A stretch of DNA of 35,811 nt, from positions 1 through 35,811 of IMG/VR virus record IMGVR_UViG_3300035459_000030; one strand, given 5' to 3'. The translations under genes and the position numbers were made by a program. Under the pieces are notes generated by a model. That model was not told the origin of the DNA. It did no database searches and worked only from the letters and a program-made list of their open reading frames with translations. The stretch is from a virus. This document shows, in pieces, positions 1 to 35,597 of the stretch (positions are counted from its first letter, which is position 1; each line of letters begins with the position of its first letter).

Positions 1-136
1 CCCCAATCGCCACGGCCTCCAGGGTGACCAGCATATCAAGGTACTCAGACAGAGACATTTTCTCCCTGGCGGCCGAAACCTTAGCCAGGTCGTGGGTCTT
101 TTTCCAGACCTTCATCGTGACAAATTTCTCACTCAC
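1..136 (-). CDS. Small protein, possible ribbon-helix-helix type, cut by the left edge
   Basis: Only the first 45 codons are present. The chosen start is GTG at 136-134, which overlaps the stop of the upstream TROVE gene and has GGAGG six bases before it; an in-frame ATG at 115-113 is the alternative. The visible protein is short, charged and helical, with a VWKKTHDLAKVSAAREKMSL stretch followed by SEYLDMLV. That pattern (a 'K-W-K-x-T-H' strand, then a helix, then 'S-x-x-E-Y-L-D') resembles small DNA-binding or antitoxin-like ribbon-helix-helix proteins, but this is only a resemblance. The overlap implies translational coupling to the Ro protein gene. Function unknown. Confidence 0.6.
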   Translation of the reverse strand, partial: MSEKFVTMKVWKKTHDLAKVSAAREKMSLSEYLDMLVTLEAVAIG

Positions 137-1469
137 CGGACGCCTCCAGCGGCTGCCCCTCCAGGGCCTCGATGTACGCCAGACAGGCTTCGGACCAGCC
201 GTCAATGTGGATCCAGGCGCCGTAGCCCACCCCGTTCTGGTCAACTGACACGTTGATCATGTAGTGCTTGCGGCCAGCGACGTAAGGCTGGCGCACCCGG
301 TCGTGAGCCTGCTCGTCGGTCAGAACGATCATGCGGTCGTACGTTTCCCGGGCCAGCAAGATGTCGACTGCGCCGCCCAGGTTGGTGCCGCTGTGACCCT
401 GGCTATTTACGATGGCGTCCCGCAGGGCAAAGCCCCGGCGGTCGGGCACCCGTTTCATGGCGTCTGAGAAGCTGTAAACCGCTATATCCTCGCAAAGCTC
501 TCGAGCCAGGATGGCCAGGCCGCAGGCCGCATCCATCCGCATCAGATCGGACTTGGCAGAGATAGAACTGTCCATACTACCAGAGACGTCGACCAGAAGC
601 ACTGTACGCCCGGGCAGCTTCTCGAGGCCGGCCAGGCACTTGAACATGGGAACCTCAATATGCGTCTCCCACTGCGGGGCCGCCTTGGCGGCAGCGATGA
701 AGCGGAAGGGGAGCACCCGCTCGACCTTCATATCCTCCAGGGCATGCAGGATGGTCGGCTCGTCGACCTTGGCCTCGGCCATGTTCCGCAGGTTGCGGAG
801 CAAGGCCAGGGCGCCCAACTTCTGCTCCCGAATCAAGCGCTCCCAGGTCTCTTTCTTGTCGGCGCCGGCAGACAGAGCCACCTCCCAGGTGTCCGGCACC
901 GCCAGCTTGTCCTCGGCCAGCTTTTTGTACAGCTCGACCTGGTATTCGAGTATCGGCCGTGGGTGGGTCATAAACATGACATCCCGCAGCTTGACGGCGC
1001 CGTCCCGGTTGTACTTGGCGAACTGGTATTCGTCGAACCTGGCGAACGAAGCCGCCAGCCCGAGCTTGACTTTCTTGGAGATCGGGCACTTGCCGTCCTT
1101 CCAATAGATAGCCAGGAACTCGGCCAACTCGTCCGGGCGCTGGATAATGCGGGGTAAGAGCGACTCAACTGCGTCCTTGTGGGACGGGATGCGAGCCATC
1201 TCCCTGGCGATCAGAAGCGGCACGTGGCGCAATTTGAAACGAGTGCGGGCATCGAAAGCGATCTCGCAGACCGTCTCGACCGGCACGTGCGGAATCAGCG
1301 AAGCAATGCGGTCAGCGATAGCCACCCCGTTCTCGTAAAAGGTGGACTCCCACAGCAAACAGGCCATCACGGAGCGCCGCAGCTCCTGCTCGGGGGTGAT
1401 ACGCATGGCCCGGCCCCCTTCGTGAGTGGTTGCATGGGTAGCAACCGGTCGTACATTCAGTCTTGCCAT
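129..1469 (-). CDS. rsr: TROVE/vWA domain protein (Ro60 / Rsr homologue)
   Basis: A 446-residue Ro 60 kDa-type RNA-binding protein. Residues about 1-285 are the helical TROVE ring, recognisable from THATTHEGG, RRSVMACLLWES, KLRHVPLLIAREMAR, RPDELAEFLAIYWKDG, GAVKLRDV and LSAGADKKETWERL. Residues about 290-446 are a von Willebrand factor A domain with an intact MIDAS: DVSGSM near residue 295, the GTNLGG threonine, and LTDEQAHD. Ro proteins form a ring that binds misfolded RNA ends in its hole and Y RNA on its outer face, and in bacteria they work with exonucleases in RNA decay. The start is ATG at 1469, with GGAGG five bases upstream; a longer reading from TTG is less likely. The gene lies directly behind the terminator of two Y-RNA-like transcripts, the usual partner arrangement. 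It probably relies on readthrough, since I see no separate promoter. Confidence 0.93.
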   Translation of the reverse strand: MARLNVRPVATHATTHEGGRAMRITPEQELRRSVMACLLWESTFYENGVAIADRIASLIPHVPVETVCEIAFDARTRFKLRHVPLLIAREMARIPSHKDAVESLLPRIIQRPDELAEFLAIYWKDGKCPISKKVKLGLAASFARFDEYQFAKYNRDGAVKLRDVMFMTHPRPILEYQVELYKKLAEDKLAVPDTWEVALSAGADKKETWERLIREQKLGALALLRNLRNMAEAKVDEPTILHALEDMKVERVLPFRFIAAAKAAPQWETHIEVPMFKCLAGLEKLPGRTVLLVDVSGSMDSSISAKSDLMRMDAACGLAILARELCEDIAVYSFSDAMKRVPDRRGFALRDAIVNSQGHSGTNLGGAVDILLARETYDRMIVLTDEQAHDRVRQPYVAGRKHYMINVSVDQNGVGYGAWIHIDGWSEACLAYIEALEGQPLEASGE

Positions 1470-1485
1470 AACAGCCTCCATCAGC

Positions 1486-1513
1486 AAAATAAAAAGCCAG
1501 CAAAATGCTGGCC
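1486..1513 (-). terminator. Intrinsic terminator after the Y RNA unit
   Basis: A perfect 7-bp stem with a 3-base loop (1496-1512) is followed, in the minus direction, by a T-rich tract covering 1486-1495. It closes the RNA unit that starts near 1743 and sits only a few bases before the ribosome site of the TROVE gene. Readthrough or RNA processing here would link Y RNA and Ro expression. Confidence 0.85.
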
Positions 1514-1522
1514 TTTGAAAGA

Positions 1523-1654
1523 TGAGGGGAACAAGCGCTCAGAGTTCTTTTAGGCGCTCTGCCGACTGAGCTATCTCAGCTTTCGCTGAGAGTGGGACTT
1601 GAACCCACGACCACCCGCTCCATAGGCGATGAAACTCTAAACTACACCACCTCA
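1523..1654 (-). ncRNA. yrlA: Y RNA with a tRNA-mimicking domain (YrlA-like)
   Basis: This RNA of about 132 nt folds as a long helix ending in a tRNA-like head. The outer strands are TGAGG (1654-1650) and CCTCA (1527-1523). Next come a GGTGGTGTAGTT strand (1651-1640) and a GCGCTTGTTCCC strand (1538-1527), both shared with the RNA upstream. Then an 8-bp helix pairs TAGAGTTT (1639-1632) with GAACTCTG (1547-1540), with GU pairs at both ends. The head holds a canonical T-arm (1608-1592, loop TTCAAGT), a 7-bp Watson-Crick acceptor-like stem (1591-1585 with 1580-1574) closed by a GAAA tetraloop, and a canonical D-arm (1571-1556). The order T-arm, capped acceptor, D-arm is what is known for bacterial YrlA, which mimics tRNA. 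It is encoded directly before the Ro gene. The assignment is inferred from these signatures and the context; the exact ends are uncertain. Confidence 0.8.
1556..1608 (-). other. tRNA-like domain in permuted order
   Basis: In transcript order: T-arm (5-bp stem, TTCAAGT loop), 7-nt acceptor 3' strand, GAAA loop, 7-nt acceptor 5' strand, TA, D-arm (GCTC/GAGC stem with AGTCGGCA loop). The acceptor end is closed by a tetraloop, so it cannot be aminoacylated. No proper anticodon arm can be built. This fits tRNA mimicry and argues against a working tRNA. Confidence 0.8.
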
Positions 1655-1663
1655 ACATTTTCG

Positions 1664-1743
1664 CAGACCAGGGAACAGGCGCCCAGGGGCTTTTGTTCTT
1701 TTATCAGGAAAGAGAAGTAACCCTGAACTACACCACCGGTCTG
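1664..1743 (-). ncRNA. Second Y-RNA-like hairpin, lacking the tRNA-like domain
   Basis: The first 80 nt of the transcript form a closed unit: 6-bp outer stem CAGACC (1743-1738) with GGTCTG (1669-1664), then GGTGGTGTAGTT (1737-1726) facing GCGCCTGTTCCC (1682-1671), then CAGGG (1725-1721) pairing with CCCTG (1688-1684). The 12-base GGTGGTGTAGTT strand is identical in the YrlA-like RNA and the other strand matches at 11 of 12 bases, while the adjoining helix covaries (CAGGG/CCCTG against TAGAG/CTCTG). The loop region has no T- or D-arm. This suggests a second Ro-binding RNA, comparable to the additional Y RNA (YrlB) near some bacterial rsr genes. It may be cleaved from the downstream RNA or act in tandem with it. 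Confidence 0.65.
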
Positions 1744-1749
1744 AGTGTA

Positions 1750-1778
1750 AATTTACTACATTCCACAACTTTTGTCAA
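1750..1778 (-). promoter_or_regulatory. Sigma70-type promoter of the Y RNA unit
   Basis: Minus-strand TTGACA (1778-1773), a 17-bp spacer and TAAATT (1755-1750). The predicted transcription start falls at about 1743, exactly at the first base of the first RNA hairpin. This gives a discrete transcript of roughly 255 nt ending at the terminator near 1490. The -35 box lies just past the stop codon of the preceding gene. Confidence 0.8.
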
Positions 1779-1781
1779 GGT

Positions 1782-2264
1782 TTATTTAGGCACCACAAAA
1801 AACGCCTGGTGGGTTATAAGCGACCAGGCGATTCCTACCAGAGCAACTACGCCGGCCACTAACAGAGGCGCCACAAAAAAGATCAGAATCGTCTTCCCGA
1901 TATTTTCGTAAGACTTCACCTTGGCGTCGACCGTAGTTTTTATCGATGTTATTTGAGACGCCATATTCCGCATCACTTCATCCATCCCGGGCGTCTTGGG
2001 GTCTTTCGGGTCGCCAAACAGGAAGTTGTACATCACCTGCTGGGTCGAACTGAGTTCAGAGATGTCTTTGCCATGCTGCTTGACAACTGCTACCAGTCCA
2101 ACATCCGGGCACCCTTCAGGACCAAAAACTGTAGTTTTTAGTGAACTGATATCCTTGTAAATTCCCGAATCAACCATATCTTCCGGTTCTCTGTACTGCT
2201 TCTCGGGGGTCTGTTTACGGGCATTCCCCTCGGCCCGGTTTGGACGTTGCGACGGCGGTGGCAT
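1782..2264 (-). CDS. Protein with one C-terminal membrane segment, lysis region
   Basis: A 160-residue protein not recognised as a family. Residues 1-30 are polar and rich in P, R, Q and E; the middle is soluble and helical; residues about 124-148 form one clear hydrophobic span (IGKTILIFFVAPLLVAGVV onward) followed by a short tail. This is a C-tail-anchored topology. The start at 2264 has no good ribosome site but lies 9 bases after the preceding stop, so coupled translation is plausible; an internal ATG at residue 30 is an alternative. Its place after a holin-like gene and an endolysin suggests a lysis accessory protein, but this is inference. Confidence 0.7.
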   Translation of the reverse strand: MPPPSQRPNRAEGNARKQTPEKQYREPEDMVDSGIYKDISSLKTTVFGPEGCPDVGLVAVVKQHGKDISELSSTQQVMYNFLFGDPKDPKTPGMDEVMRNMASQITSIKTTVDAKVKSYENIGKTILIFFVAPLLVAGVVALVGIAWSLITHQAFFVVPK

Positions 2265-2839: not shown

Positions 2840-3889
2840 TTAGTCTCCTTTCGGGGCCGTAGACGTCCAGCCCAGGAACGACTTAGCTTCAGCCTGAAGC
2901 TGTACGATATTCGCCTCGGCTGTTACCAGGCGGTTGTTCAGCGTCTCGAGCGTGATCTCGGCCGGCGGTACATCGGGCGGAACGACAACTGGGGGAACCT
3001 GGGTGGAGTGTGGCTTGTAAGCGAAGCGCTGGCACATGGTTGGGTAGTCGCCGTGAAACAGGTTCAGGCCGATCTGGTGGCCATGGGTACCGGCCATCCC
3101 GATATAGTTCTCAGCCCACTGCACCATCAGGTAGTCATCCCAGCCCGGCGGCTGCGGTTTGTACGCATCGCCCGGATAGTAGTTGAGCAAGTCCTGCCAG
3201 GTGATGGTGGTGGTCGGCGTGGCCGGGTGAATCCACTGCGCCAGGTGAACCAACTTCTGGTTGGCGGTCACCTGGGGACCAACCCAGTCCCGGACGGCTG
3301 GGTACAAACCAAACCAGCCCGGGGAGCTGTAGAATGCGAGCGGCACCGTGTTGACGTCCGGGTCGTGCAGGAACCACCCGTACAGCGTATTTAAGTAAAT
3401 CTGGGTATTCGTGTTGGTATTGGACTGGTCTTCGCAGTCGAGCTCCAGGCCGTGGAATGAGACGCCGGCCTTCTTATTCTTCAGGGCGTACTTGAAGGCC
3501 AGGTAGCCAATATCCGAGCTGGCGCTCCCCGCCTGGGGAACGTCGAATTTCGGAAAGTGGTAGCCAAAAAACATCAGATCGTTATTGTAGGCCGACTGGC
3601 AGTAATTCGAAAACTGCTGGTCGACGTAGTTCGCCGGGTCGAACGGGTCTCCGGCCACCTGCTGCCAGCCGCTCGAGGCCCGGGCCAGCACCCAGCGCAC
3701 CCCGCTGGCGTACATGGCAGCGAAGTCGCCATCCGTCAGCGGCCCGCAGTAGCTGGAGATATCCACGCCCAGGGCGTAGTTGACGTACTGGCTGACCACC
3801 GCAGCGGCCTCTGCGATCATGGCCACCTGGGGCTGCGCCCCAAACTCCTCCGCAAAAGACTGGCCTAAGAATAGAGGATTCGTATCCAT
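2840..3889 (-). CDS. Endolysin, GH25-type muramidase
   Basis: A 349-residue enzyme predicted to cleave the glycan strand of peptidoglycan at host lysis. The GH25 barrel starts around residue 40 with GVDISSY (Asp43) and carries GLELDCED near 147-154, where Asp151 and Glu153 form the DxE catalytic pair expected for the family. GYHFPKFD and HLAQW-type strands follow. Residues 1-38 precede the barrel with no signal peptide. After a Pro-rich linker around 295-312 (PPVVVPPDVPP) comes a short coiled-coil-like tail of about 35 residues instead of a recognisable wall-binding domain. Start ATG at 3889 has AAAGGAG eight bases upstream. Placed next to holin-like genes. Confidence 0.85.
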   Translation of the reverse strand: MDTNPLFLGQSFAEEFGAQPQVAMIAEAAAVVSQYVNYALGVDISSYCGPLTDGDFAAMYASGVRWVLARASSGWQQVAGDPFDPANYVDQQFSNYCQSAYNNDLMFFGYHFPKFDVPQAGSASSDIGYLAFKYALKNKKAGVSFHGLELDCEDQSNTNTNTQIYLNTLYGWFLHDPDVNTVPLAFYSSPGWFGLYPAVRDWVGPQVTANQKLVHLAQWIHPATPTTTITWQDLLNYYPGDAYKPQPPGWDDYLMVQWAENYIGMAGTHGHQIGLNLFHGDYPTMCQRFAYKPHSTQVPPVVVPPDVPPAEITLETLNNRLVTAEANIVQLQAEAKSFLGWTSTAPKGD

Positions 3890-14669: not shown

Positions 14670-15158
14670 TTAGTCGGTCTCGGCCAGCAAGCGCCTGGCC
14701 TGCCGTGAGACACGTAATTGAAACCGGATGCCCCAGTACTCAGTATTGTTGATATTCACGGTTCCGACACCGCTGTCGCCAATGATCAGCGCATCCTTCA
14801 CGCCCTGGGTGGCGGAAAGTCTCGGATACAGGCCGAACTGGGTGTACACCAGCTCCAGGTAAGGGACCAGCAAGCCGCTTTTCTCTTCGGGTGTGCCAGC
14901 GGCCATGGGGGAATGGTAGAGCACCACGTCCCACATGCGGGTTTCCATAAACTCTCTGTACAGCCCCTCTGAGCCGATCAGACGGTTCTCGATAAGCCGG
15001 CCCGGGAAGTTGATGAAATCTGGCATGTTGCCAACCGGGTTCACCAGAGGAACGCTGGCATAGGCATAAATCGGGTTGCCAGTATCCGGGGAAATGATCT
15101 GCCCCTCCACGCTGGCGATGGCGGCCATGATGGCCTCGGCGGAACCGGGCGTCGTCAT
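14670..15158 (-). CDS. Tail terminator / tail completion-type protein
   Basis: A 162-residue protein (segments IISPDTGNPIYAYAS, DFINFPGRLIENRLIG, MRMWDVVLYHSP-like) placed directly before the tail tube gene. That is the usual slot of the protein that caps the tail tube. ATGA overlap with the upstream connector gene. No signature motif was recognised, so the call is by synteny. Confidence 0.55.
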   Translation of the reverse strand: MTTPGSAEAIMAAIASVEGQIISPDTGNPIYAYASVPLVNPVGNMPDFINFPGRLIENRLIGSEGLYREFMETRMWDVVLYHSPMAAGTPEEKSGLLVPYLELVYTQFGLYPRLSATQGVKDALIIGDSGVGTVNINNTEYWGIRFQLRVSRQARRLLAETD

Positions 15159-15772
15159 AAGTAATTCCAGCCTTCCTTGCGGATGTACGGCTGAAGTTGC
15201 TCGACCAGGCGGACCGGCCAGGCTTTGGTGTAAACCATCGTAGCCAGCTCAGCCACACCTATGGCGTCGGTCATCCCGGTTTCGGCCTCGTGGTAAAAGC
15301 GAGCCGTCAGCAAGGCGCAAAGCTCGAGCAAATCCGCCGGCAGGCCCGCTGTACTGCCGCTGATGCCACCTATGTAGCTGATCTGCACCCGGCACTTGCC
15401 CGGGTAGTTGCATACCGGGCCGCCGGTCGGGTAAGCGAGCACCTTATTGCCCCAGATATCGGTCAGCGTCGGGCTGACTGTCGTCCAGAGCTGGGTGACA
15501 TCGGCACGGTACGCAAAAGCGGACACAGAAGCCACCATGGGCTTGTGCGGGAAACAGGTCACCAGGCCGGCAGCGGTGGCCAGGCCCGGAATCTGCTCGC
15601 CGGTCTTGGTCTCCAGCATAAAGTAGTTATCGGAATCGGGACCGTACTGGCCAGTGCATTTGCGATCGATGGCCCGGGAGCAAGCGGTGATGAACGTCTG
15701 CAAGAGCGCATCGTCCGTCCCCAGAGTAATTCGCATTTCGCTTTTAGCCTGAGCCAGGGTTGTGTAGTCCAT
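15155..15772 (-). CDS. Head-tail connector (adaptor) protein
   Basis: A 205-residue protein whose start, DYTTLAQAKSEMRI, then DDALLQTFITACSRAIDRKC, is the helical pattern of the HK97 gp6 / YqbG-like head-tail adaptors: a first helix with 'T-L-A-x-A-K', then a helix with 'A-x-x-x-I-D'. A beta-rich middle follows. These proteins form a ring under the portal. GGAG ribosome site; its start follows the previous stop by one base and its end overlaps the next gene by ATGA. Confidence 0.72.
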   Translation of the reverse strand: MDYTTLAQAKSEMRITLGTDDALLQTFITACSRAIDRKCTGQYGPDSDNYFMLETKTGEQIPGLATAAGLVTCFPHKPMVASVSAFAYRADVTQLWTTVSPTLTDIWGNKVLAYPTGGPVCNYPGKCRVQISYIGGISGSTAGLPADLLELCALLTARFYHEAETGMTDAIGVAELATMVYTKAWPVRLVEQLQPYIRKEGWNYL

Positions 15773-18442: not shown

Positions 18443-19330
18443 TTATTCCCTCACTACTCGGATCATATGGCCGGGGGCGTCTGCTACGTCCTCGGAAAGT
18501 ATTTTTTCAAGTTCTTCCCGTACCGCCTGCCGCAGCAAATCCGGCAGGGAATCTCGAAAGTCCTGCATGACCTTGATCAGGGCATTGGCGGAGTCGGTCA
18601 TTTCCCGGCTGCGGACCAGGGCCTGGGTCAAAGTTTCAGTGGGCGGAACGTCGGTATTGGACTTGATAGGCAGCGGGTTGTTGGCCAGGGGAAATCGTGA
18701 TATTGAGATGGTCATCCCCTGTACACCGGTGATCACGTCCTCGGACGCCGGAGCCGGCGTGGGCGGGGTTGGAATCGCCTTGGTAACATCTTCATCTGGC
18801 TCCCAGGTGAGCGACAGGCCGGCTGCGCCAGGATGGAACTCCACCTCGCTGGCACCATCGGCCTTGGTAAGCTGGAACGTGGCACCCGGGATGCAGGGAG
18901 CGTCTACAATTGACAACTCGGACGGCTTGGCGGTGTAGCGAGTCAACCCAGGACGACTGCCGTCCGGCCATCTCTTGACGTAAGACCCGCCAATAGAAAA
19001 GCCGGTGTAGACGCCCTCTTTCACCTTCTGCCACTCGCCGTCGTCGACTATTTTGGCCCCGACAAAAAAGCCCATGGTCTTGTCGTCCGGCCGGAAGTCA
19101 ATCAACTTGCCGGCCACCCGGGTTTGGTGCATTGCTCGCAGGTTGCCCATTGAGCGGCCACCGGAGCGTTTCTGGGCGGCTGAGGACCAGTCCTCGAAGT
19201 ACGGCTTGGAACTTTTATAGTCCATGATCTCGTCTACCGCATCGGGCTGCTCCAGGGCACCCCAGCCCCATATTTCGTGGCGCTCTTCGTCGACTTTGGT
19301 GATCGGAAGGAACATCGTGTGATCGGGCAT
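18443..19330 (-). CDS. Prohead maturation protease
   Basis: A 295-residue protein just before the capsid gene. The N-terminal 175 residues match the HK97-family (S78/XkdF-like) prohead protease plan: NLRAMHQTRVAGK near 63-75 supplies a candidate catalytic His, and EGVYTGFSIGGSYVKR near 106-120 the Ser, followed by ELSIVDAPCIPGATF. The C-terminal third is polar and helical (SLPDLLRQAVREELEKIL) and may act as internal scaffold. The ribosome site is a very strong AAAGGAGG. A promoter with a leader hairpin lies just upstream, so head genes from here on may be separately controlled. Confidence 0.78.
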   Translation of the reverse strand: MPDHTMFLPITKVDEERHEIWGWGALEQPDAVDEIMDYKSSKPYFEDWSSAAQKRSGGRSMGNLRAMHQTRVAGKLIDFRPDDKTMGFFVGAKIVDDGEWQKVKEGVYTGFSIGGSYVKRWPDGSRPGLTRYTAKPSELSIVDAPCIPGATFQLTKADGASEVEFHPGAAGLSLTWEPDEDVTKAIPTPPTPAPASEDVITGVQGMTISISRFPLANNPLPIKSNTDVPPTETLTQALVRSREMTDSANALIKVMQDFRDSLPDLLRQAVREELEKILSEDVADAPGHMIRVVRE

Positions 19331-19876: not shown

Positions 19877-22046
19877 ATTCCACCTCAATTCCCATATCTT
19901 TCAACTTAGCCTCCACTATCTTGTAACGGTCAGAGAGTTGAGGCTTCCCGCCTCGCATACCCCACTCCCCTTCAAAACAAGAACTATGGAACACCACCTT
20001 CTGTACCTCGGCCAACTCAACCCCGCCCGTTATTTGAGCCTCCATGTACGACGACCAGCCCTTCAACCCAGCGCCCCGGGGATGATCCATGAGATCTTCA
20101 ACCTCCCCGTCCAGGCCCTCGATATCAGGGTTCAGAAGGGGTGTACCGCATAGCGACCCGTTGGCAAAATCTCCGAGCGAATCTCCGCAGGTGATAGTGG
20201 TGCGCTTCTTCACTTCCTCTTTCATGACTAGCTTGATCTCGCCATAAGATTCGGCGTCGGAGCCAGCGCCTTCGATGTAGCCGTAAATCGGCCGCAGGTG
20301 GGGCGTGATTTTGACGCCGTCCTTGAAACCCATGCCGTACATCTCGGCCCGGTTGCGATGTGAAGGGGACAGACAACCTTCCGACCTACCCGTCTCGAAC
20401 TGCGTCTTGAACCGCCCATCCCCATCGATCACTCTCGTCATGGCGTCAATACCCGTACGCTTACAGAGCGGCTTGTCCTTCACAGAGGCCCGGAAGTAGT
20501 CCAGAACCTTTTTTCTTGCACTGGCGACAGTCGTTTTATGCCGCCTGGCCCAGTCGGATATTTCGGTTTCCGCATGATTCCGGGCATTCTCCAGATCTTC
20601 GCCCTTGGCCTGGTACAGCGGCTTCTCGGCCTTACGGATATACTCCCGGGCTGGATCCGCTGGCGGTGCCTTGAGCGGAGCATGAGGCTTGGCGGCCGCA
20701 GCACCAGGCTTGGCTGGAGCGGGGCGGGGAGCGGGGGCAGGGGCTGGCACCTTGGCCTCCCGGGCCTCCCGGATCTTCACGGCGTACCGATCCCGGATAT
20801 TGTTGGTCATCTCAACCATTTCGTTGTCGAGGGTCTCAAGATCGGACCCCGAGAGCTTTTCGGCTGCAATCTCACGGGCTTTATCCCGGAACTCAATCAC
20901 GCCGTCAATATCCGACGTAACAGAATGCTGCAGGGCGTACAACTTATCATTCTTCCCGATCTTCGCTTTTACCCGCAGGTAGATCGCCCGGATGCCGTCG
21001 CCAGCGACTTCGGCCTCGATGGGCTTGACCTCGTCGGGTGTCAGATCGGGCAACGCTGAAGCCGGAGCCGGCGCTGCACCCAGGCCACCGTCAGGACGCA
21101 TCCCAGGCCCAGGCATCGGTACACCGCTGGTGGGTCTGACCGTCACAAACCTAGCCGGCAGAGCCGCAGGACCAGCACCCGCAGCCTTCTTGCGCTCCCG
21201 TAGTTCTGCGATACGAATAGCAGTCACGGCACGATCAAACGTACTTTTATCCTCCGCTCGCATCAGAGCGCCTCGCATAGAATGAACTACATAGTCGTAA
21301 CGCTTCTTTCCGCTAAGACCCAATTTTCCAGCCATATCAAAAGCCAATACAGGATCATCGTCCGGACCAGGATAAGCCAGCTTCAGGCGCCTCATCCCCT
21401 CGCCCTCCCAGAATGTTTCAGGGGCGGCCGGGGCAGGTGTCCCGAATACAGCGTCCAGGATCGCCCGATCCCTTGCCTCCATCGTGGGACTGCGTGGGGG
21501 CGCCGTGGGGGCTTTTGGCGGTACAGCCGACACAGATGCCACTGCGGCTGGCTTTGGGGGCACTGTGGCCGTCCTGGGGGCGGGTGGCGCAACCGGAGCG
21601 GCGGAGACACGTGGCGGGCCGATCTTCTTGCCAGGCTCGAACACACCCGCCTTCTTGCGCTCCCGCAGCTCTGCAATGCGGACTGCAGTCATGGCGTGGT
21701 CGAACTTGTCACGGTCAGCACCGGAGAGCTTCGCTCGCAAGCCGGCCGCCATAAAATCATAAAGAGCCTTACCTTTCAGATCGTCGGGGGCGGCCGCCAT
21801 AATTTCAGGCAAGTCATGGTCTCCCCCTGGGTAAGCCTCGACCAACCTCCTTGCGCCGACCACGGTGAAAAATTTATCCCGGTCGTACGCAGGCGCCTTG
21901 GCCGGCGCCTCAGCCGCAGAAGCGGCAGCTGGTTCACCGCCGCCGCCACCTTTCGGGGCAAACTCGCCGCCACCCCCTTCCCCTTTCGGTACCCGGGGAT
22001 GCTCGGTCGGGTCGAAATCAACCTTGATCATTCTTGGCAGCGTCAT
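19857..22046 (-). CDS. Minor head-associated protein with possible ADP-ribosyltransferase-like C-terminus
   Basis: A 729-residue protein in three parts. Residues 1-40 carry HPRVPKGEGGGGEFAPKGG, a motif also present in the kinase-like protein upstream. Residues 55-440 hold Ala/Pro-rich linkers and repeated helical modules: RIAELRERKKA occurs twice, and the module with VKAKIGKNDKLYALQHSV is shared with the kinase-like protein. The C-terminal 200 residues read SEGCLSPSHRNRAEMYG, SYGEIKLVMKEEVKKRTTIT-CGDS and SSYMEAQITGGVELAEVQKV. This resembles DUF3626-type domains that have been linked to the ADP-ribosyltransferase fold, with possible Arg, Ser and Glu positions; I hold this link loosely. ATGA overlap with the Mu F-like gene. 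It may be packaged in the head and ejected. Confidence 0.6.
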   Translation of the reverse strand: MTLPRMIKVDFDPTEHPRVPKGEGGGGEFAPKGGGGGEPAAASAAEAPAKAPAYDRDKFFTVVGARRLVEAYPGGDHDLPEIMAAAPDDLKGKALYDFMAAGLRAKLSGADRDKFDHAMTAVRIAELRERKKAGVFEPGKKIGPPRVSAAPVAPPAPRTATVPPKPAAVASVSAVPPKAPTAPPRSPTMEARDRAILDAVFGTPAPAAPETFWEGEGMRRLKLAYPGPDDDPVLAFDMAGKLGLSGKKRYDYVVHSMRGALMRAEDKSTFDRAVTAIRIAELRERKKAAGAGPAALPARFVTVRPTSGVPMPGPGMRPDGGLGAAPAPASALPDLTPDEVKPIEAEVAGDGIRAIYLRVKAKIGKNDKLYALQHSVTSDIDGVIEFRDKAREIAAEKLSGSDLETLDNEMVEMTNNIRDRYAVKIREAREAKVPAPAPAPRPAPAKPGAAAAKPHAPLKAPPADPAREYIRKAEKPLYQAKGEDLENARNHAETEISDWARRHKTTVASARKKVLDYFRASVKDKPLCKRTGIDAMTRVIDGDGRFKTQFETGRSEGCLSPSHRNRAEMYGMGFKDGVKITPHLRPIYGYIEGAGSDAESYGEIKLVMKEEVKKRTTITCGDSLGDFANGSLCGTPLLNPDIEGLDGEVEDLMDHPRGAGLKGWSSYMEAQITGGVELAEVQKVVFHSSCFEGEWGMRGGKPQLSDRYKIVEAKLKDMGIEVEYAPDTR

Positions 22047-22804
22047 AGTACGACTCCTCTGGCAACCTCACTGGGGCGCATGAGCACGCTCGAGCACCGG
22101 CAGTCAGGATGCCCTGGCGGCATCTTCTGCCCCACGTTGAACACCCGGCCATGCAGCGCCCGGCAGCCGTTGTACCAGGCGCCGTCCGGCCCCTGCAGGC
22201 GCTTCGTGCAGACCAGGCTGTCCCGCTTAGTCTGCCACCACCACTGGTTGATACCCAGTACGCCCGCCACGTGCTCCTGAATCAGGCTGGCGGCCCGGGT
22301 GATCTCGGTCTGAGCGATCAGGTCGGCCCGGGGCCGGCCAAAGTGCGGAGACAGATCCCGCACCGCAGCCTCCATGGTCTCGCCAGGCGTGGCAAACCAC
22401 TGGTTGATGCGAGCCGCCACCTTGCGCTGGGTCGACACCCGTACGCGCCGGATCTGCAGCGCCAGGTCGGCCTCGATCTGGTTCAGAACCGCCTGGTAAT
22501 TGAATTCGAATGGATCGGAGAGCGGCTGCATCCTGGCGATGGCCTCCTCTAGCGTAAACAGGGGTACGATACCGTCCGCCACCAGGTCGATCAGCCGCTT
22601 GTGCAAGCGCTCCTCGAAGCGCTCCCAGACGGCATGGTTCTCATAGAACGAAACCTTGCGGAGCTGGCTGCTGGCCGTACGCAGCTTCACCCGCACCCGG
22701 CGCCACAACCACTGCAGCTCCTCATGAGCCGCCTGGCCCATCTTGTCCTGCAGATCGGTTTGCAGCCGGGAGCGCTGGCGTGCAGCATCGGTCAGGCGTT
22801 TCAT
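22043..22804 (-). CDS. Minor head protein, Mu gpF / SPP1 gp7-like
   Basis: A 253-residue protein, mostly helical. It carries the family's two landmarks: a helix with IAQTEITRAASLIQEHVAG near 164-184, and the terminal CRALHGRVFNVGQ then MPPGHPDCRCSSVL motif near 217-243, with His and Cys residues. Proteins of this family associate with the portal and are often needed for infectivity or DNA entry. The gene is embedded in the head operon with ATGA overlaps on both sides and no separate ribosome site of note. Confidence 0.85.
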   Translation of the reverse strand: MKRLTDAARQRSRLQTDLQDKMGQAAHEELQWLWRRVRVKLRTASSQLRKVSFYENHAVWERFEERLHKRLIDLVADGIVPLFTLEEAIARMQPLSDPFEFNYQAVLNQIEADLALQIRRVRVSTQRKVAARINQWFATPGETMEAAVRDLSPHFGRPRADLIAQTEITRAASLIQEHVAGVLGINQWWWQTKRDSLVCTKRLQGPDGAWYNGCRALHGRVFNVGQKMPPGHPDCRCSSVLMRPSEVARGVVL

Positions 22805-23127: not shown

Positions 23128-25305
23128 TTACCTCACCATCCCCTCGAGCTGAGAGATGCCGTAGTCGCAGGCTTCTTTCCAGTTCTTTTCGAATTGATCC
23201 ACGGTGACGTGGCGCTTCGCCAGGTCGGCGGCCCCCACCCCCTGGCCGTAGTGCTCCTTAACCAACTGACTAAACTGCGGACTGTTCACGAACGCCTTGA
23301 CCTTGGCGACGTCCTCTTTTTTGACCACCTTATTGACACGGTCGCCCGTCAGGGCAGCACAATATGTGTCGCAGTTCGAAGCGCACCGGCCCAGGATGTG
23401 AGCATGCGGCTCGCCCCGGCCGGCCTCCAGGCCGACCAGGCCATTGTCGACACCCCGCATCTCACCCGTGGCCTCGTCGTACATCCAATTGCCAGGGTTG
23501 CGGTCACGGTTGGCCAGGCCGTAGTCGAAGGCGATCATCTCAGAGACTGAAGCCCGCAGGGCCGGCGTATCCTTCACGCCGCCCCGGTGGTACAGCACAT
23601 CCGAGCCACGGATGCCAGTCTCCAGCCACGCCTGCATCGAATAGGTGCCCTTCTTGCCCGTCACCGGGTCGTCGGCCTCTTTGTACGAAGTCGGCTGGAG
23701 CACGTGGAAGCCGGCCAGGACAGAAGCTTCGTAGGCACAAACCTCGGAAGGCGGGAAGCCGTACCGGCTGCCCTCGCTGGTGCTGGTGCCCTTCATACAG
23801 GCATCGGCATCGCCCTCCACGTGCATGTGGAAGGTGGTATCGTCATTGATACCGCCGCCCTTGATCTCGTCGACCAGCGAAACAGGGTTGTCGTGGTACA
23901 TCTGCAAGAGCTTGGCGTGAACCGGGGACACACGGGCCAGAATCGAAGCGTGAAAAGCATCCCCACTCAGCACGCCATGGGCCTTCTTATCCTCCAGGGC
24001 CTTGGCCTGCGCCGCAACCCATTCGTTGCCGGCAGCGAGATAATGCTCATTCATCGCAGCGGCAGACATTTTATCGCCGCCCACCGCCTTCAGCTTATTC
24101 ATAAAAGCCAGCATGTCATTCTCGGGGTCGGAGCCGGCGTCCGCCTGTTTCCAGGCCCGCAGCACCTCGCCGCCTCGAATGCCATGAGCGATGGCAGTCT
24201 CAGCCAGGCTGTCGATATGCTTATGCCAGATCGGGGCTGCAATGGCCTTGCGCTCGTGGTCGTCCAGAGTAACAGACTTGACCGGAACCGGAGCCGCAGG
24301 CGGAATGGGCTTCTTGGCTTCACGGGCCGCCTTTACCCTGTCGTCGAACTCGTTTACAGCGTTCTGGGCGATTGAGTCAATCTCGTCCATCTCGCCCGGG
24401 CGACCATTGCGCTCTAAAATATCCCTGACCTGCTGATGAAAATACACTATCCCAGTCAGATCTCGCCCAGCTTTATGCTGGAGGGCAAACAGCTCATCAT
24501 TCTTGCCGATCTTGGCCTTGGCCTTCAAGTACATACTACGGATGGCGTTGGTGGCTACATCGGCCTTGATATTAGCCACCTCGGTTGTGCTCAGGTCTGG
24601 CAGCCCGGAAGTGCCAGTGCCCGCCGCAGCCGGAGCTGAAGCGCCGCCAAAGGCGCCCCCGACCGGGCGTACGGCAAAGCCCTTGGGTGCAGGCTTCGCC
24701 GCCGGAGCAGCCGCAGGCGCTGCAGCTCCAACGTGCTTGGCCTTGATGCCGCCAGCGCCACGCCAGCCGGCCACACGGAGCTTCTCTCGCATGGCCTTGA
24801 ACTCGGCGCCCTTGCCCTCTATATCGGCCGCTCTTTGTACAAAGCCGGCCATGTATTTGAAACCTTCCTCTGGATCCTTAGAAGCCCCGATATCAATGGC
24901 GTCCCGATAAGCCTGCTCGAAGTTTGAAGGGTCCATGGCTAATTCGTCTTTGCCATAGTCCCTCATCTGGCGGATGGCGTTGGCATAATGCTTGGCCTTG
25001 AACCTTGCCACCGATTCCTTGCCGCCCGTACTAACGTCCGCCGTGGCCGGGTAGTGCGGCTTCTTGGCAGCCGGAGCGGCTGCGGCAGCCCCAGCGACCG
25101 CACCGCCCTTGGGAGCGAACTCGCCCCCGCCCTTACCGCTGGGAACCCGGGGATGCTTGGTGGAGTCGAACGCCTTATCCAGATCGTCTGGCCAGACCAC
25201 CTTGATCATGCGTGAGCCAGGCACCGTCTCGATCTCCACCTGCTCCAGATGCTTGGTGTGGTGCCGTACAGCCAGTTTCAATTGGTTCCGGATAGAGACC
25301 TTCAT
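23128..25305 (-). CDS. Kinase-like protein (PI3K/HipA-related fold) with phage N-terminal modules
   Basis: A 725-residue protein. The start is ATG at 25305 (MKVSIRNQLK) with GGGAGGTG upstream and ATGA overlap with the portal stop; 46 extra open codons upstream are rejected. Residues about 42-65 carry STKHPRVPSG then GGEFAPKGG. The middle holds helical modules with KAKIGKNDELFALQHK, shared with the 729-residue protein downstream. The C-terminal 230 residues look like an atypical kinase: ACMKGTSTSEG (candidate ATP-binding Lys near 503), EVCAYEASVLAG (Glu), VLQPTSY, then ANRDRNPGNWMYD near 600 and GVDNGL near 620, equivalent to the catalytic and metal-binding loops. Catalytic residues appear intact. 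The substrate is unknown. Position suggests a virion-associated or ejected enzyme. Confidence 0.7.
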   Translation of the reverse strand: MKVSIRNQLKLAVRHHTKHLEQVEIETVPGSRMIKVVWPDDLDKAFDSTKHPRVPSGKGGGEFAPKGGAVAGAAAAAPAAKKPHYPATADVSTGGKESVARFKAKHYANAIRQMRDYGKDELAMDPSNFEQAYRDAIDIGASKDPEEGFKYMAGFVQRAADIEGKGAEFKAMREKLRVAGWRGAGGIKAKHVGAAAPAAAPAAKPAPKGFAVRPVGGAFGGASAPAAAGTGTSGLPDLSTTEVANIKADVATNAIRSMYLKAKAKIGKNDELFALQHKAGRDLTGIVYFHQQVRDILERNGRPGEMDEIDSIAQNAVNEFDDRVKAAREAKKPIPPAAPVPVKSVTLDDHERKAIAAPIWHKHIDSLAETAIAHGIRGGEVLRAWKQADAGSDPENDMLAFMNKLKAVGGDKMSAAAMNEHYLAAGNEWVAAQAKALEDKKAHGVLSGDAFHASILARVSPVHAKLLQMYHDNPVSLVDEIKGGGINDDTTFHMHVEGDADACMKGTSTSEGSRYGFPPSEVCAYEASVLAGFHVLQPTSYKEADDPVTGKKGTYSMQAWLETGIRGSDVLYHRGGVKDTPALRASVSEMIAFDYGLANRDRNPGNWMYDEATGEMRGVDNGLVGLEAGRGEPHAHILGRCASNCDTYCAALTGDRVNKVVKKEDVAKVKAFVNSPQFSQLVKEHYGQGVGAADLAKRHVTVDQFEKNWKEACDYGISQLEGMVR

Positions 25306-28253
25306 CCCGCACCTCCCTCGGTCATCGGTGTCGGCAGCGGGGGAACCATGGGAATCATGCGAGCCTTGTACACGTCCACCGCTCGCTGCAGAGCGTTTGC
25401 GACCGCCTGCTCGTCCTCCAGGCAGTTGCGAATGTCGGACCACAGGTCGTGGTTGCCGATAATGAGATAAACCGAATCGATCAACTCGGGGTTCAGCGGC
25501 CGGCCCCTGACAGCGTCCACAAATGTGCTGTGCAGCTCCTGGTCGGCCTTGACCGGGAAGGCCAGGTCGCTGTCGATCAGCACCGGCCGGCCGTCGTCAT
25601 CCGGGTGGGTCAACCAGTTTTTGTTGAAGCGGTCGACCTGGCCGGAGATGTAGTCCAGCACCGCCGCCTGCTGCACCCAGGCTTCGTCGTATTCGTTGAC
25701 GTCCTTACGCTGCTCCCGGCCCTGTACGTAGTGCTGAATCGAGCCAGGCTTGCCGTCCAGTTCGTCCATCCAGGTGACCGGCACCAGGTAATGGTTCACG
25801 TCGGGCGCCAGCTCCCGGTCGAGAAGGTAAACCGCCTCGGCCCGCCGGTACATCTCGCCTCCCACCCACTCCTGCAGATCCTTCTTCTCGCCGTCCAGCG
25901 GCTTCCAGACCGCCGGCCTGGGTTCCTGGTTGACCCCACCCACAGATACGATCATGGCGTCATTGGCGCCCTGGTGCGGCATGGGTACAGCCAGCGGGTG
26001 GGTGACCGGGGCACCGTAATACTGCTCGTCCAGAGCGTCCACCCCGCAGGTCTTAAACAAATCCAAGCCGGCCAGGAACTTCTCAGCCAGGCCAGCGTCC
26101 TCGAGCTTGTCGTAATAATGCGGATCCTCTTTTAAGTGGTCGAGCGCCACCTGGGCGATCTTCGCCTGATCGCCGCCCAGCGTACCAGCGTGCTCCTGCT
26201 CCTCTTTCAAGCCAGCAAACCACTCAAACATGGTGATCTTGTCCCAGTCGACCCCGAGCTGCTCACCCAGGTCGAGCATGGCATCTTCCTGCGCCTCTTC
26301 GTTGTCGAGCGACTCGGCATCGGTCACCGGATCGCCGGCAGCGTCGTCAGCGCCCAGGGCCTTCTTCACCCGCAGCGGCTGCTTGAGCACCGATACCATG
26401 TGGTTGAGCACCTGAACGGTCTTGTGGTCTTTGACGTCGATAGCGCCGTGCAGTCCACCAGGCTTCACGCCAATCGGGCCATCCAAACCACCGCCACCAT
26501 CTGACCCGTCGTCCTGTGCAGAACCCTTGCCGCCCAGGGGAGCCATCTGCTGGCCCTTCTCGCCGCCCAGCGGCTCCATGTTGATGCCGCCCCGGTATTC
26601 GTCCAGGGTGATGCCGCCAATCTGGAAGCGGGTGGCAAACTTGGCCTCTTCTTTGTCGGGGTCGATGCTCTCTTTGGGGAACATCAGTTTGAAGAACGTG
26701 CCATCGTAGCCGTTCTCAGTCAGCGTCTCATTGAAACAGCCCTCGATATACGACTGCAGGGGACTGATACACATACGGTAAAAGGCCGAGCTCATCGCCT
26801 CAGCAAAGCCCTTGCCCCCCAGCATGCCCTCCGGAGCCTCACCTACCTCGGATTTCGGGATGCCGGCCGATATGCGTACGGCGTTTGAAGCCACGTCGTA
26901 GGTCTCCTGGTTGAAGGTCATATCCTTGACCGCAATCTGGGTCATGCCGGCAGGCATAAATCGCACCCTGGCCGCCCGTTCTTGCAGATTGCCGCCCATG
27001 CGGTCGTTGTATTCGTCCTCGTACTGGAATATCTTCTCAGGGGAAGTCCACTCGGGCGGAGAAGCCAGCATCATCTCAGGCAGCGTGCCGGTAGTGTACT
27101 TGGCCTGCTCGTAAGTCCACAGGTTGGCCAGCAACAGCACAGCGCCTATGCTATCCTCGATGAACGTCTTGCCATAAGGCGCATCGGGCCGCAGGTAGCG
27201 GGGCCGGTACAGAAGCTGGCGCGTGTTGAGATACATCCTCGGCGTGCCCCAGATCACCTGGGTGAAGGCCGGAGCCGGCGGCTGCGGTTGCTCGCCTCGC
27301 TCGTCGATCACGCTAAAGATGGTCGAGCCGTCAATGATCCGCAGGCCGACCACCGGGGCGTTAGCCAGCTTCGCCAGCTTGCCCTTGAATAGCTTATCGT
27401 GCTGGATCGCATCGCCGTCGATCTCAGTCATCTGGTGCTGAGTGAGCGATTCGCCGCAGTTACGGCAGCGCTTCTCGCTGACGTCAGTCTTGGCTAAGTC
27501 GTAATGGTAAACATTGGCCTGACCGCAATTGGTACAAAACCAGCGCACCTGCGGGATAGCCGTCTCGTTCTCCCAGATATGGGTCAGGTCGCAGGGCTTG
27601 TAGACCTTGCCCTTCAGCATGCGCTGCGGCTCGCCCGAGATATCACGGATGCGGTACAGCGCCGGCGCATCGTAGGCCAGAACGTTGAAGATAAAACGAG
27701 AGAGCCAGACCGGCCAGGGGTTGAAGCGGTCAGGCTTGGTGGTCATCCATTCCATTTCGGGTATCTTAACCGGCTGGTCGTTCTTATCCACCAGGGTCGG
27801 GTTGAACGCCTTCAGCTCCTCGGTGGGCAGCCGGATGCAGAGAGCGACCTCCGGCACGTTCAGGGCGTAGTTCTTCAGATCGCTGAACGCCGTCAGGTTG
27901 TAAGCCAGGCGGGGACTGATGGTGCTGTTGACAGACGGCACGTACTGGAATGAGCGTGGCTCGGCATTGCGCTGCTCTTCCGAGAACGTCTCGTTCGTCC
28001 AGGGCCGGCCAGGCCCCATCCATTCATTGGCCCAACTGCCCGGCACGTTGTTGTGCCTCGGGGGCCGCAGCGTATCGACTACCTCGATTGGGCCATTCGT
28101 GCCATTATTGGACTGTACACCCGTGGGTGTTGACAAGCCGGTCGTGACGTTTACCGGGTGAGCCGGCGCCTGCGCCAGACCGCCCAAGACCGGGACGCCG
28201 GGCGCTTTCCTTAGCCCGTCTACAAAGCCGTTTACGGCTTCTCGTAGTCCCAT
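25302..28253 (-). CDS. Portal protein with C-terminal kinase-like domain
   Basis: At 983 residues this is about twice the usual portal length. Residues 1 to about 590 form the portal: WPVWLSRFIFNVLAYDAPAL, the YRPRYLRPDAPYGKTFIED clip/wing segment, and RISAGIPKSEVGEAPEG with a stem-crown helix. A Cys cluster (CTNCGQ then CRNCGES near 235-265) may bind zinc. Residues about 640-760 contain ALDHLKEDPHYYDKLED, a motif seen in other phage structural proteins. Residues about 780-900 look like a kinase: AVWKPLDGEKK (Lys), RRAEAVYLLDREL (Glu), VPVTWMDELDGKPGS, DYISGQVDRFNKNWL (catalytic loop) and LIDSDLAFP (metal site). Strong GGAGGG site. The fusion puts a kinase-like domain at the DNA-entry vertex of the virion. 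Confidence 0.82.
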   Translation of the reverse strand: MGLREAVNGFVDGLRKAPGVPVLGGLAQAPAHPVNVTTGLSTPTGVQSNNGTNGPIEVVDTLRPPRHNNVPGSWANEWMGPGRPWTNETFSEEQRNAEPRSFQYVPSVNSTISPRLAYNLTAFSDLKNYALNVPEVALCIRLPTEELKAFNPTLVDKNDQPVKIPEMEWMTTKPDRFNPWPVWLSRFIFNVLAYDAPALYRIRDISGEPQRMLKGKVYKPCDLTHIWENETAIPQVRWFCTNCGQANVYHYDLAKTDVSEKRCRNCGESLTQHQMTEIDGDAIQHDKLFKGKLAKLANAPVVGLRIIDGSTIFSVIDERGEQPQPPAPAFTQVIWGTPRMYLNTRQLLYRPRYLRPDAPYGKTFIEDSIGAVLLLANLWTYEQAKYTTGTLPEMMLASPPEWTSPEKIFQYEDEYNDRMGGNLQERAARVRFMPAGMTQIAVKDMTFNQETYDVASNAVRISAGIPKSEVGEAPEGMLGGKGFAEAMSSAFYRMCISPLQSYIEGCFNETLTENGYDGTFFKLMFPKESIDPDKEEAKFATRFQIGGITLDEYRGGINMEPLGGEKGQQMAPLGGKGSAQDDGSDGGGGLDGPIGVKPGGLHGAIDVKDHKTVQVLNHMVSVLKQPLRVKKALGADDAAGDPVTDAESLDNEEAQEDAMLDLGEQLGVDWDKITMFEWFAGLKEEQEHAGTLGGDQAKIAQVALDHLKEDPHYYDKLEDAGLAEKFLAGLDLFKTCGVDALDEQYYGAPVTHPLAVPMPHQGANDAMIVSVGGVNQEPRPAVWKPLDGEKKDLQEWVGGEMYRRAEAVYLLDRELAPDVNHYLVPVTWMDELDGKPGSIQHYVQGREQRKDVNEYDEAWVQQAAVLDYISGQVDRFNKNWLTHPDDDGRPVLIDSDLAFPVKADQELHSTFVDAVRGRPLNPELIDSVYLIIGNHDLWSDIRNCLEDEQAVANALQRAVDVYKARMIPMVPPLPTPMTEGGAG

Positions 28254-28285: not shown

Positions 28286-29866
28286 TCAAAAACCCTGAAT
28301 AATACTACCCGCCACCTGGGGCCGTACCCGGGCTGCCCGCTCGGCGTTCGATTTCTTCAACGCCTCAATCCACTTATCGATACTGGGCTGGCTGCCTTCC
28401 CAGAAGGCCATGACCACGCCGTCGCCGTCATCGGTGGAGCGGCCGATGCGCTCCTTGATATCATCCTTCGACTCCATGATGATCTTGCCGCCGCTCTGCT
28501 CTTTCCAGTGTACGGAAGTCAGGTCGCCGGTCAGGTTGGTGGCCAGGGCGTCGCCCTGATCTTCGTCGGGGGGCAGCGCCACATGGAAACCGTTGGCCGG
28601 GTCGAGCAACTCCCGCATGTGCCACCAGGCTGCCGCCCGCAGGTTGGCAAAGCCCAACTCGTGCGTGCTGTCCAGGGCGTCAGTCTTCTCGGCGGCGTTG
28701 AACGCCACTACATTGCAATGCTGCTCCCGTAGCCGATCGAACACCCCGGCCCCGATGCCGATCACGTCCACCACGGCATACCCGCCGTAAGCGTCAAGAA
28801 TCCCTTTGATACGGCCGGTGGTCTGCATGGTATCCTCAAGGTGCATCTTCCGCAGCTCTTTGATCACGAACTCGTAACGCAGGGCCAGCGACGTGGCGTC
28901 CTCGCCAGACCTGGCGATGTCCGAGCCTACGCAGGTGAACTGCAGGCCGGCAAAGTTGTGATCTTGCTGCGCGTACCACTCCTCATTGGCCTTCTCCACC
29001 CAGGACAGGGGAATGACGCCGTCTTTCTCGCTCGAAGCAAAATTACCCAGCACCCGGTTCTGGTACGCAGCCGACTGCTCGCCCCACTGCTTGATACGGA
29101 AGTTCGCCCACTCCTGGTTGAGCCGGCCAGCTGCGATGACCTCGGCCAGGGTGATGTGACGCACGGACCAGTCCTCGTAGCCGTTCTTGCGGCTCTGGAT
29201 GTCGTAGAACCGCCCGGCCGGCTCGCCAGGCGTACTGACCGCCAGCCAGTAGCAGTCGCCAGCGCTGAAGGCGCCCTCGGCGCTGTCCCAGGTATCGACC
29301 GGTATCTCCTTGCTCTCGTCGAACACGTACAGCATGCGCTCGGCGTGGGCGCCCTCGATCAGGGCGGAGTTGTCGGATGCCAGGCAGAACGCCTCGCCCG
29401 TGTCCAGCTTCAGATTCAGCTCCTGCAGCTCCAGGCGCTCGTCGAACGGCTGGCGGCCGATCACATCCCACCTCAGCCGGCGTGCCCACTTGTGTACTTC
29501 AGGGAAAAGGAACTTGGTGAGCTGGCGCCAGGCACTGGCCGTGATAGGCACCTTCCAATCGTAGTCGCCGTCGTTCACCAGGGCAAACCACAGAATGATG
29601 AGAGCCACCACCGCCGTCTTGCCCACGCCGTGCGGACTGCGGACTGACAACCGCCGCAGGGCTGGCAGATCCGTGGCGATCTTGGTCTGGTACGGAGCCG
29701 GCCCCTCGCCAGGGCGCCAATTGATACAGTCCCGGATGAAACCCGCCGCATCATACCGGTATCGCTCTTTGAAGCGCTGGTAGGCCGTGCGCTCGTCCCC
29801 CGCCTTCCCGGCCCGCCGCCGCAGCTCGAGCTGTGCCCTAGCCTGGATTTGCAGTGACGTCGGCAG
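28286..29866 (-). CDS. terL: Terminase large subunit
   Basis: The DNA-packaging motor ATPase and nuclease. The uninterrupted frame from a CTG at 29866 gives 526 residues. Walker A is PHGVGKT near 78-84, Walker B MLYVFDE near 178-184, and the RNase-H-like nuclease begins VGSDIARSGEDAT near 313-325, followed by VVDVIGIGAGV and the final GDALATNLTGD region. The APYQTKIATDL segment (Q-motif) lies upstream of the first TTG at 29650, so a start at that TTG would remove a needed part. Between 29905 and 29651 the frame has no ATG, GTG or TTG. CTG at 29866 follows GGGAG by six bases and is my preferred start. It overlaps the end of the small subunit gene by 29 bases. Confidence 0.88.
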   Translation of the reverse strand: MPTSLQIQARAQLELRRRAGKAGDERTAYQRFKERYRYDAAGFIRDCINWRPGEGPAPYQTKIATDLPALRRLSVRSPHGVGKTAVVALIILWFALVNDGDYDWKVPITASAWRQLTKFLFPEVHKWARRLRWDVIGRQPFDERLELQELNLKLDTGEAFCLASDNSALIEGAHAERMLYVFDESKEIPVDTWDSAEGAFSAGDCYWLAVSTPGEPAGRFYDIQSRKNGYEDWSVRHITLAEVIAAGRLNQEWANFRIKQWGEQSAAYQNRVLGNFASSEKDGVIPLSWVEKANEEWYAQQDHNFAGLQFTCVGSDIARSGEDATSLALRYEFVIKELRKMHLEDTMQTTGRIKGILDAYGGYAVVDVIGIGAGVFDRLREQHCNVVAFNAAEKTDALDSTHELGFANLRAAAWWHMRELLDPANGFHVALPPDEDQGDALATNLTGDLTSVHWKEQSGGKIIMESKDDIKERIGRSTDDGDGVVMAFWEGSQPSIDKWIEALKKSNAERAARVRPQVAGSIIQGF

Positions 29867-30361: not shown

Positions 30362-30717
30362 GATGTCAATTTCGACCTCATCGCCGCCAGCACCTGGGCA
30401 TACGTGCTGGTTACATTGGCCGTCGCAAAGCCCTGCGCCGCCAGCCATTGGTTGAGCTGCAATCGTATCCCGGCCGGAATAACCACAATATAAGTTGCTC
30501 CCGACAGATCCATCGCCCTGGCCTGTAGCACCTTCGCAAAATCTGCAAAAACATTCTGGATATTCGTGACAGCATCGGACGCTACACCCGCCAGGTCGAA
30601 GGCGCTCAATGGAACCGTATTAATCTGCACATCGCAATAACCATTGCCGTCCGGCGCAACCTGCGTGACATACTCAACAATCTGGCCGAACAGGGGAATA
30701 GGCGCGTATTTAGGCAT
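30358..30717 (-). CDS. Hypothetical protein downstream of the DGR reverse transcriptase
   Basis: A 119-residue protein overlapping the end of the reverse transcriptase gene by 8 bases. It begins with PKYAPIPLFGQIVEYVTQVA and has a helical remainder (AVTNIQNVFADFAKVLQARA, IPAGIRLQLNQWLAAQG). It is not a recognisable Avd four-helix accessory protein, although its place (next to the RT) and helical C-terminal half make an accessory role possible. It could equally belong to the terminase side. Confidence 0.6.
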   Translation of the reverse strand: MPKYAPIPLFGQIVEYVTQVAPDGNGYCDVQINTVPLSAFDLAGVASDAVTNIQNVFADFAKVLQARAMDLSGATYIVVIPAGIRLQLNQWLAAQGFATANVTSTYAQVLAAMRSKLTS

Positions 30718-31744: not shown

Positions 31745-31870
31745 AAGACCTTCTTATTAGCCTCAAGGTGGTTCGGTTTCCCTACTAAACCCTGCTCTTT
31801 ACGGCCTGATTTTCACCAAGAGGTGGGGAATATAAGATGCAAATATTTCATAACCATCTCTAATAAGAGT

Positions 31871-31974
31871 CCGGCCGCCGATGTTGACGTTCGCATTCCC
31901 GGAGGTGTTGTTCAGGTTCCAGTAGAACAGGCCCGCATTCGACCCGTTGTTCCAATTCGCACCAAACATCGCAA
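31871..31974 (-). repeat. DGR template repeat (TR)
   Basis: A 104-base segment matching the 3' end of the target gene without gaps. It differs at 17 positions, all T on the plus strand, that is, A on the coding strand (17 of its 24 adenines). No G, C or T of the coding strand is changed. Read in the target frame it codes for ten Asn codons, the usual adenine-rich AAC/AAT design that allows broad substitution. Confidence 0.97.
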
Positions 31975-32024
31975 GCACGCATCCTATATCCCTTTTTGAT
32001 TTATAAAGAACAAGAAAAGCAAGA

Positions 32025-32042
32025 CTGGGGGGAGACCCCCAG
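32025..32042 (-). other. Hairpin downstream of the variable region
   Basis: A perfect 7-bp GC-rich stem with a 4-base loop (GAGA on the plus strand, TCTC on the coding strand). It lies 27 bases past the VR, just beyond the target stop codon. Known DGRs carry a GC-rich hairpin or cruciform with a tetraloop here that raises retrohoming efficiency. The T-rich sequence beyond it could also make it a terminator. Confidence 0.7.
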
Positions 32043-32047
32043 ACCCC

Positions 32048-35546: not shown

Positions 35547-35560
35547 TCTTGCCTCATAAA

Positions 35561-35597
35561 ACAAACACGGCCAGCCTGAAACCAGGTCTGGCCGTGT
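35561..35597 (-). terminator. Leader hairpin, possible attenuator, before the methyltransferase gene
   Basis: A 10-bp stem (35565-35574 with 35588-35597) enclosing a smaller CCTG/CAGG stem. It is followed in the minus direction by TTTGTTTT and then the gene start. It lies within the leader of the promoter upstream, the same layout as at 19346-19413. Confidence 0.65.

Follow-up and report, generated by a model that had tools for sequence, protein, structure and literature searches.

A bacterial virus from metagenomic sequence (IMG/VR virus record IMGVR_UViG_3300035459_000030, analysed over all of its 35,811 bases and called here the window) carries a Ro60/Y RNA module, which our analysis confirms as real and finds to be more complete than earlier described, with two tandem Y RNAs. 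The initial annotation had proposed one structured RNA of about 255 nt between a promoter and a terminator, and an RNA unit does lie before the Ro gene, but it is not one RNA: a covariance model built from relatives (R1) resolves two units, and the single long RNA was dropped for that reason.

The Ro60 protein and its genomic setting

All genes of the window that family searches recognised lie on the minus strand, including those for the terminase large subunit (28286-29650), the portal (25302-28253), head morphogenesis (22043-22804), the maturation protease (18443-19330), the connector (15155-15772) and a GH25-like endolysin (2840-3889). The Ro gene and the Y RNAs occupy the downstream end of the window, just downstream of the endolysin region and on the same strand. 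Elsewhere on this strand, a weak PI3/PI4-kinase-like match, below the cut-off, falls between the portal and head-morphogenesis genes (23128-25443), a DNA methyltransferase with a ParB-like N-terminal part is found at 34302-35564, and a homing endonuclease ORF of LAGLIDADG/HNH-like type at 33394-33915. The window also holds a diversity-generating retroelement (30710-33406, minus strand) made up of a reverse transcriptase (30710-31744, PHROG_1423), an RT-18 RNA (31750-31825), a template repeat (31864-31974) and a variable repeat (32062-32172) that forms the 3′-terminal part of an ORF for a tail protein (32048-33406), where 18 of the 19 differences between the two repeats fall on a template A. 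An exact 52-nt direct repeat (35691-35742 and 35760-35811), the second copy of which reaches the contig end, may be a tandem repeat or an effect of assembly.

By its domain profiles and predicted fold, the protein of 446 aa encoded at 129-1469 (minus strand) is a member of the Ro60/Rsr family, as first claimed from its TROVE and vWA domains, and it is predicted to bind Y RNA. The TROVE profile PF05731 matches it with 56.6 bits against a cut-off of 23, PHROG_850 (“RNA-binding protein”) covers residues 7-440 (E 1.5e-43), and the vWA_Ro60 profile reaches 23.2 bits, below its cut-off of 27.7. The C-terminal vWA domain carries a MIDAS motif, DVSGSM, whose residues D294, S296 and S298 are invariant in 36 relatives, and translation likely starts at the ATG at 1469, preceded by the ribosome binding site GGAGG (1475-1479, minus strand). 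A profile of 20 relatives matches the solved Ro structures 9l5y, 9kop, 9nen, 1yvp and 2nvo, and the AlphaFold model (pLDDT 87.7), calculated from an alignment without GenBank-phage rows, predicts a helical-repeat ring together with a vWA fold. The first 13 PDB matches of this model are all Ro or TROVE proteins (TM 0.63-0.76 by query), led by 9kop, a TROVE crystal structure, and 9l5y, Ro60 from the Thermus phage phiLo.

Relatives of this protein occur in 81 INPHARED phage records, and profile scans confirmed them in 499 IMG/VR stretches and in 258 stretches of genome contigs from bacteria and archaea, the best 80 from each set being kept; scanning the genome contigs with the single Ro protein had found none, and the 258 came with an alignment as query. 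On a tree of 184 Ro proteins, the phage and genome labels need 8 changes compared with about 59 when shuffled, a suggestive sign that phage copies mostly group together, limited by low tree support and by a sampling that favours clustering.

Two tandem Y RNAs and their candidate regulatory signals

The regions upstream of the Ro relatives contain repeated units marked by GUGGYG, GGUUACUUC and UUGUUCCC, and in many of them a T arm, a closed acceptor hairpin and a D arm follow one another in this order. From 29 such units, with the window left out, we built R1, which finds two Y RNAs in the window, both on the minus strand, at 1526-1650 (115.3 bits, E 6e-28) and at 1670-1736 (31.6 bits, E 1.7e-6), the third-best match having an E value of 0.79. 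Y RNA 1 (1664-1743, core 1670-1736), supported by R1 and by folding, is a simple stem closed by CAGACC/GGTCTG that lacks a tRNA module. Y RNA 2 (about 1523-1654, core 1526-1650) ends 54 nt before the Ro start, and is thus encoded next to the rsr-like gene; R1 and covariation bear out the YrlA-type tRNA-mimicking domain assigned to this region, this RNA holding a circularly permuted tRNA module of T arm, closed acceptor hairpin and D arm. The region 1480-1750 (minus strand) as a whole folds with a z of -3.0.

A search with the Rfam model of bacterial YrlA, RF02553, was favourable in part: it does match the core of Y RNA 2, but over model positions 23-87 of 114 only and with 33.9 bits; the gathering score of 69 is reached neither by the window nor by any of 13 relative loci. 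This match alone is weak, since the model also scores at a low level in control genomes bearing tRNAs (E <= 0.001, below the cut-off, in 7 of 14), and it was dropped as sole proof. A hand-made motif counter gave a false unit at 2363-2495, inside a gene, and for this reason unit counts rest on the covariance model.

In an alignment of 30 units including the window, made with MAFFT and without use of the structure, 90.9% of the cells at paired positions can pair, compared with 66.3% after shuffling and 35-48% when the pairing is slid, and 216 cells are changed on both sides compared with 69 in the shuffles. The Y stem, in which the 5′ and 3′ ends pair and which lay outside the filter by which the units were picked, shows double changes in all 8 of its pairs (87.9% of cells paired). 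Double changes were also seen in 7/7 pairs of the acceptor hairpin, 3/5 of the T arm, 3/4 of the D arm and 2/5 of an anticodon-like arm, counts that lean towards structure because the script required the T, acceptor and D arms, and mostly the anticodon-like arm too, to pair.

At E <= 0.01, R1 matches 239 times across 99 further Ro loci, with 238 matches lying on the strand of the Ro gene; the number is an upper estimate, since a few low-scoring ones are real tRNAs, on which the model reaches up to about 46 bits (e.g. L019 4215-4336). These matches often stand several in a row, in tandem arrays, across bacteria and phages. A stricter script finds a permuted-tRNA unit in 35 of 91 loci from IMG/VR, 44 of 80 from genomes and 6 of 14 from GenBank phages. 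Most Y units immediately precede Ro on its strand, and some lie downstream of it (e.g. L019-L021, L148, L157). One viral contig with arrayed Y RNAs (L008) also has a tmRNA at 1353-1739, matched by the Rfam permuted tmRNA and betaproteobacterial tmRNA families.

The two RNAs are framed, on the minus strand, by a candidate sigma70-like promoter, TTGACA-17-TAAATT (1750-1778, 10 of 12 consensus positions), which stops 7 nt short of the 5′ end of Y RNA 1, and by an 11-bp hairpin resembling an intrinsic terminator after Y RNA 2 (1492-1516, fold z -4.8). Both signals claimed in the initial annotation can therefore be located, but as consensus matches, and they rest on their position rather than on the scan, since in 6 kb such sites were no commoner than in shuffled sequence. 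The same annotation had placed the module in a late structural operon. Strand and position just downstream of the endolysin region agree with this, but the late-operon reading is doubtful, because the Y RNAs have a sigma70-like promoter of their own and because another hairpin could possibly terminate the upstream unit: 8 bp, CGCCTGGT/ACCAGGCG, with a T run (1797-1830, minus strand, fold -16.4 kcal/mol, z -1.6), in the end of the ORF at 1782-2264. The TROVE gene of crAss001 is an early one, transcribed at 0-10 min of infection (PMC8375218), and by this analogy the Ro protein and Y RNAs may be expressed early rather than late.

Permuted tRNA modules with an anticodon-like arm

A further arm is likely to be real in many units. 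Among 106 script-detected units, 42 have a hairpin of 5 bp, with a loop of 7 nt and U33, placed 5 nt ahead of the T arm, compared with 0-10 that have it at other distances. Its anticodon-like triplets are diverse, and U occupies position 36 in 33 of the 48 distinct cases. When modules are rebuilt in tRNA order, ARAGORN calls a tRNA in 53 of 55 selected units and in none of 55 shuffled ones, which speaks of tRNA likeness and is no independent test, as the 55 were selected for their arms and rebuilding supplied the ACCA end. In the window this arm is tentative: AUCGC-CUAUGGA-GCGGG forms 4 of 5 pairs, and a shifted hairpin is favoured in the fold of lowest energy. The tRNA copy in the Y RNA module may be more complete than usually described, and if the diversity of the arm is functional, it would bear on the purpose that the tRNA module serves in bacterial Y RNAs.

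The likeness to tRNA also affects annotation. Annotations of phage Ro60 genes usually omit the accompanying RNAs and in some cases list them as tRNAs. ARAGORN calls a tRNA in 11 of 98 Y units, including that of the window (tRNA-His, 1583-1657, minus strand, in Y RNA 2), and the Rfam tRNA model takes one unit of Xanthomonas phage 10KY502B as a tRNA. Three GenBank tRNA features of cultured phages are probably misannotated Y units: a tRNA-Thr in Xanthomonas phage 10KY502B (L015 2322-2389), a tRNA-Ser in Brevundimonas phage Gurke (L016 2266-2340) and a tRNA-Gln in the Caulobacter phage CcrColossus (L018 1628-1695). R1 finds such Y RNAs, and points to laboratory phages of Xanthomonas, Caulobacter and Brevundimonas for the removal of Ro and Y RNAs.

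Possible roles and known systems

The explanation in which we place fairly good confidence is that the phage encodes a ribonucleoprotein of Ro60 and Y RNA, which would steer or shield structured RNAs in the course of infection. Taking the protein family with its predicted fold, the two RNAs with their covarying structure and the recurring place of such RNAs beside Ro genes in phages and bacteria, we infer transcription, processing, binding, partner and effect as follows. A transcript of about 255 nt from the sigma70-like promoter would hold both Y RNAs, which would fold separately and probably be cut apart, and partial read-through of the terminator would allow expression of the Ro protein. 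The conserved stem (GUGGYGUAG...UUGUUCCC) would let both RNAs bind the Ro ring; Y RNA 1 may be a simple gate on the ring, and the permuted tRNA module of Y RNA 2 would dock a host partner in tRNA handling or RNA decay, comparable to the D. radiodurans system, where Y RNA tethers Rsr to PNPase (PMC7790460, PMC8394870). The resulting particle would then steer or shield structured RNAs; the initial annotation had suggested that it might serve host RNA decay or the protection of phage RNA. Neither PNPase, the partner in a RYPER-like Rsr-Y RNA-PNPase machine, nor RtcB was seen in the window; the effector step is carried over by analogy from bacteria, PNPase tethering being reported for D. radiodurans and not for phages, and phages might use the ribonucleoprotein otherwise.

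The main alternative, to which we give a minor share of belief, is a decoy against host defence, where the Ro-protected permuted tRNA would bait anticodon nucleases or other tRNA-attacking defences and so spare the real tRNAs. The tRNA-like spacing of the anticodon-like hairpin, its varying triplets and the early transcription in crAss001 fit such a role, and a competitive-inhibitor function has been floated for YrlA (PMC7790460); however, the nuclease studied does not cut Salmonella YrlA (although an inhibitor would fit that too), the same RNAs are carried by bacteria, which are not phages, and the arm of the window is incomplete and shifted in its lowest-energy fold. It is comparably improbable, in its widest form, that the Ro-bound RNAs of this phage and of its phage and bacterial relatives are diversified, complete, circularly permuted tRNAs in tandem arrays, whose anticodon arms with varied anticodons would serve as isotype-specific decoys or sensors for tRNA-attacking enzymes, a role for these arrays that is a guess.

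Less probable still is that the upstream RNA acts mainly in cis, as a leader setting Ro expression, for instance by a feedback in which Ro binds the leader of its own gene. The terminator-like hairpin between Y RNA 2 and the Ro start and the usual place of Y units directly upstream of Ro speak for it, but some units lie downstream, bacteria have known stand-alone Y RNAs that bind Ro, and a leader would be compatible with the ribonucleoprotein. Finally, YrlA could be imitated by a tRNA-His gene, whether ordinary or decayed, or by tRNAs in tandem, as suggested by the ARAGORN call and by the scores that YrlA models and R1 give in tRNA-bearing genomes and on real tRNAs. We regard this as very improbable: Y RNA 2 scores across the whole R1 model, Y stem included, its seven perfect acceptor pairs, closed by GAAA, covary across relatives, Y motifs stand at both ends, and the neighbouring Y unit has no tRNA parts. 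We rejected a plain tRNA-His gene because the acceptor hairpin covaries and because both the Y stem and the Y motifs are present.

Ro60/Y RNA modules are not new in phages, since a phage Ro60 structure has been solved (9l5y) and earlier work has reported or proposed Y RNAs in phages (PMC12282133, PMC7765460). The phiLo Ro60 shares the fold predicted for the window protein, which is 24% identical to it over the structural match; in the phiLo stretch (L023) no Y unit passed R1 at E 0.01. Listeria phage CKA15 likewise has a Ro-like (Rsr) gene near abundant small RNAs proposed as Y RNAs (PMC12282133), which were seen by sequencing and not modelled, whereas those of the window come from modelling. 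A further parallel is found in the bacterial Rsr with YrlA and YrlB (Salmonella, D. radiodurans and others): there too a TROVE-vWA protein has Y RNAs encoded beside it, and in one or more of these RNAs the T arm, acceptor hairpin and D arm make up a permuted tRNA module. Chen et al. 2014 reportedly noted likely Y RNAs close to Ro60 in more than 250 bacterial and phage species. The window differs from the bacterial systems in belonging to a phage, in showing no rtcBA repair genes within its length and in matching the Rfam YrlA model at the core only; moreover, the arms by which a review characterises YrlA are the D, T and acceptor arms, whereas the window may have an anticodon-like one as well. 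Less expected than the module itself is that many such modules, in bacteria and phages alike, hold a hairpin resembling an anticodon arm with varied triplets, and that their Y RNAs often occur in tandem arrays.
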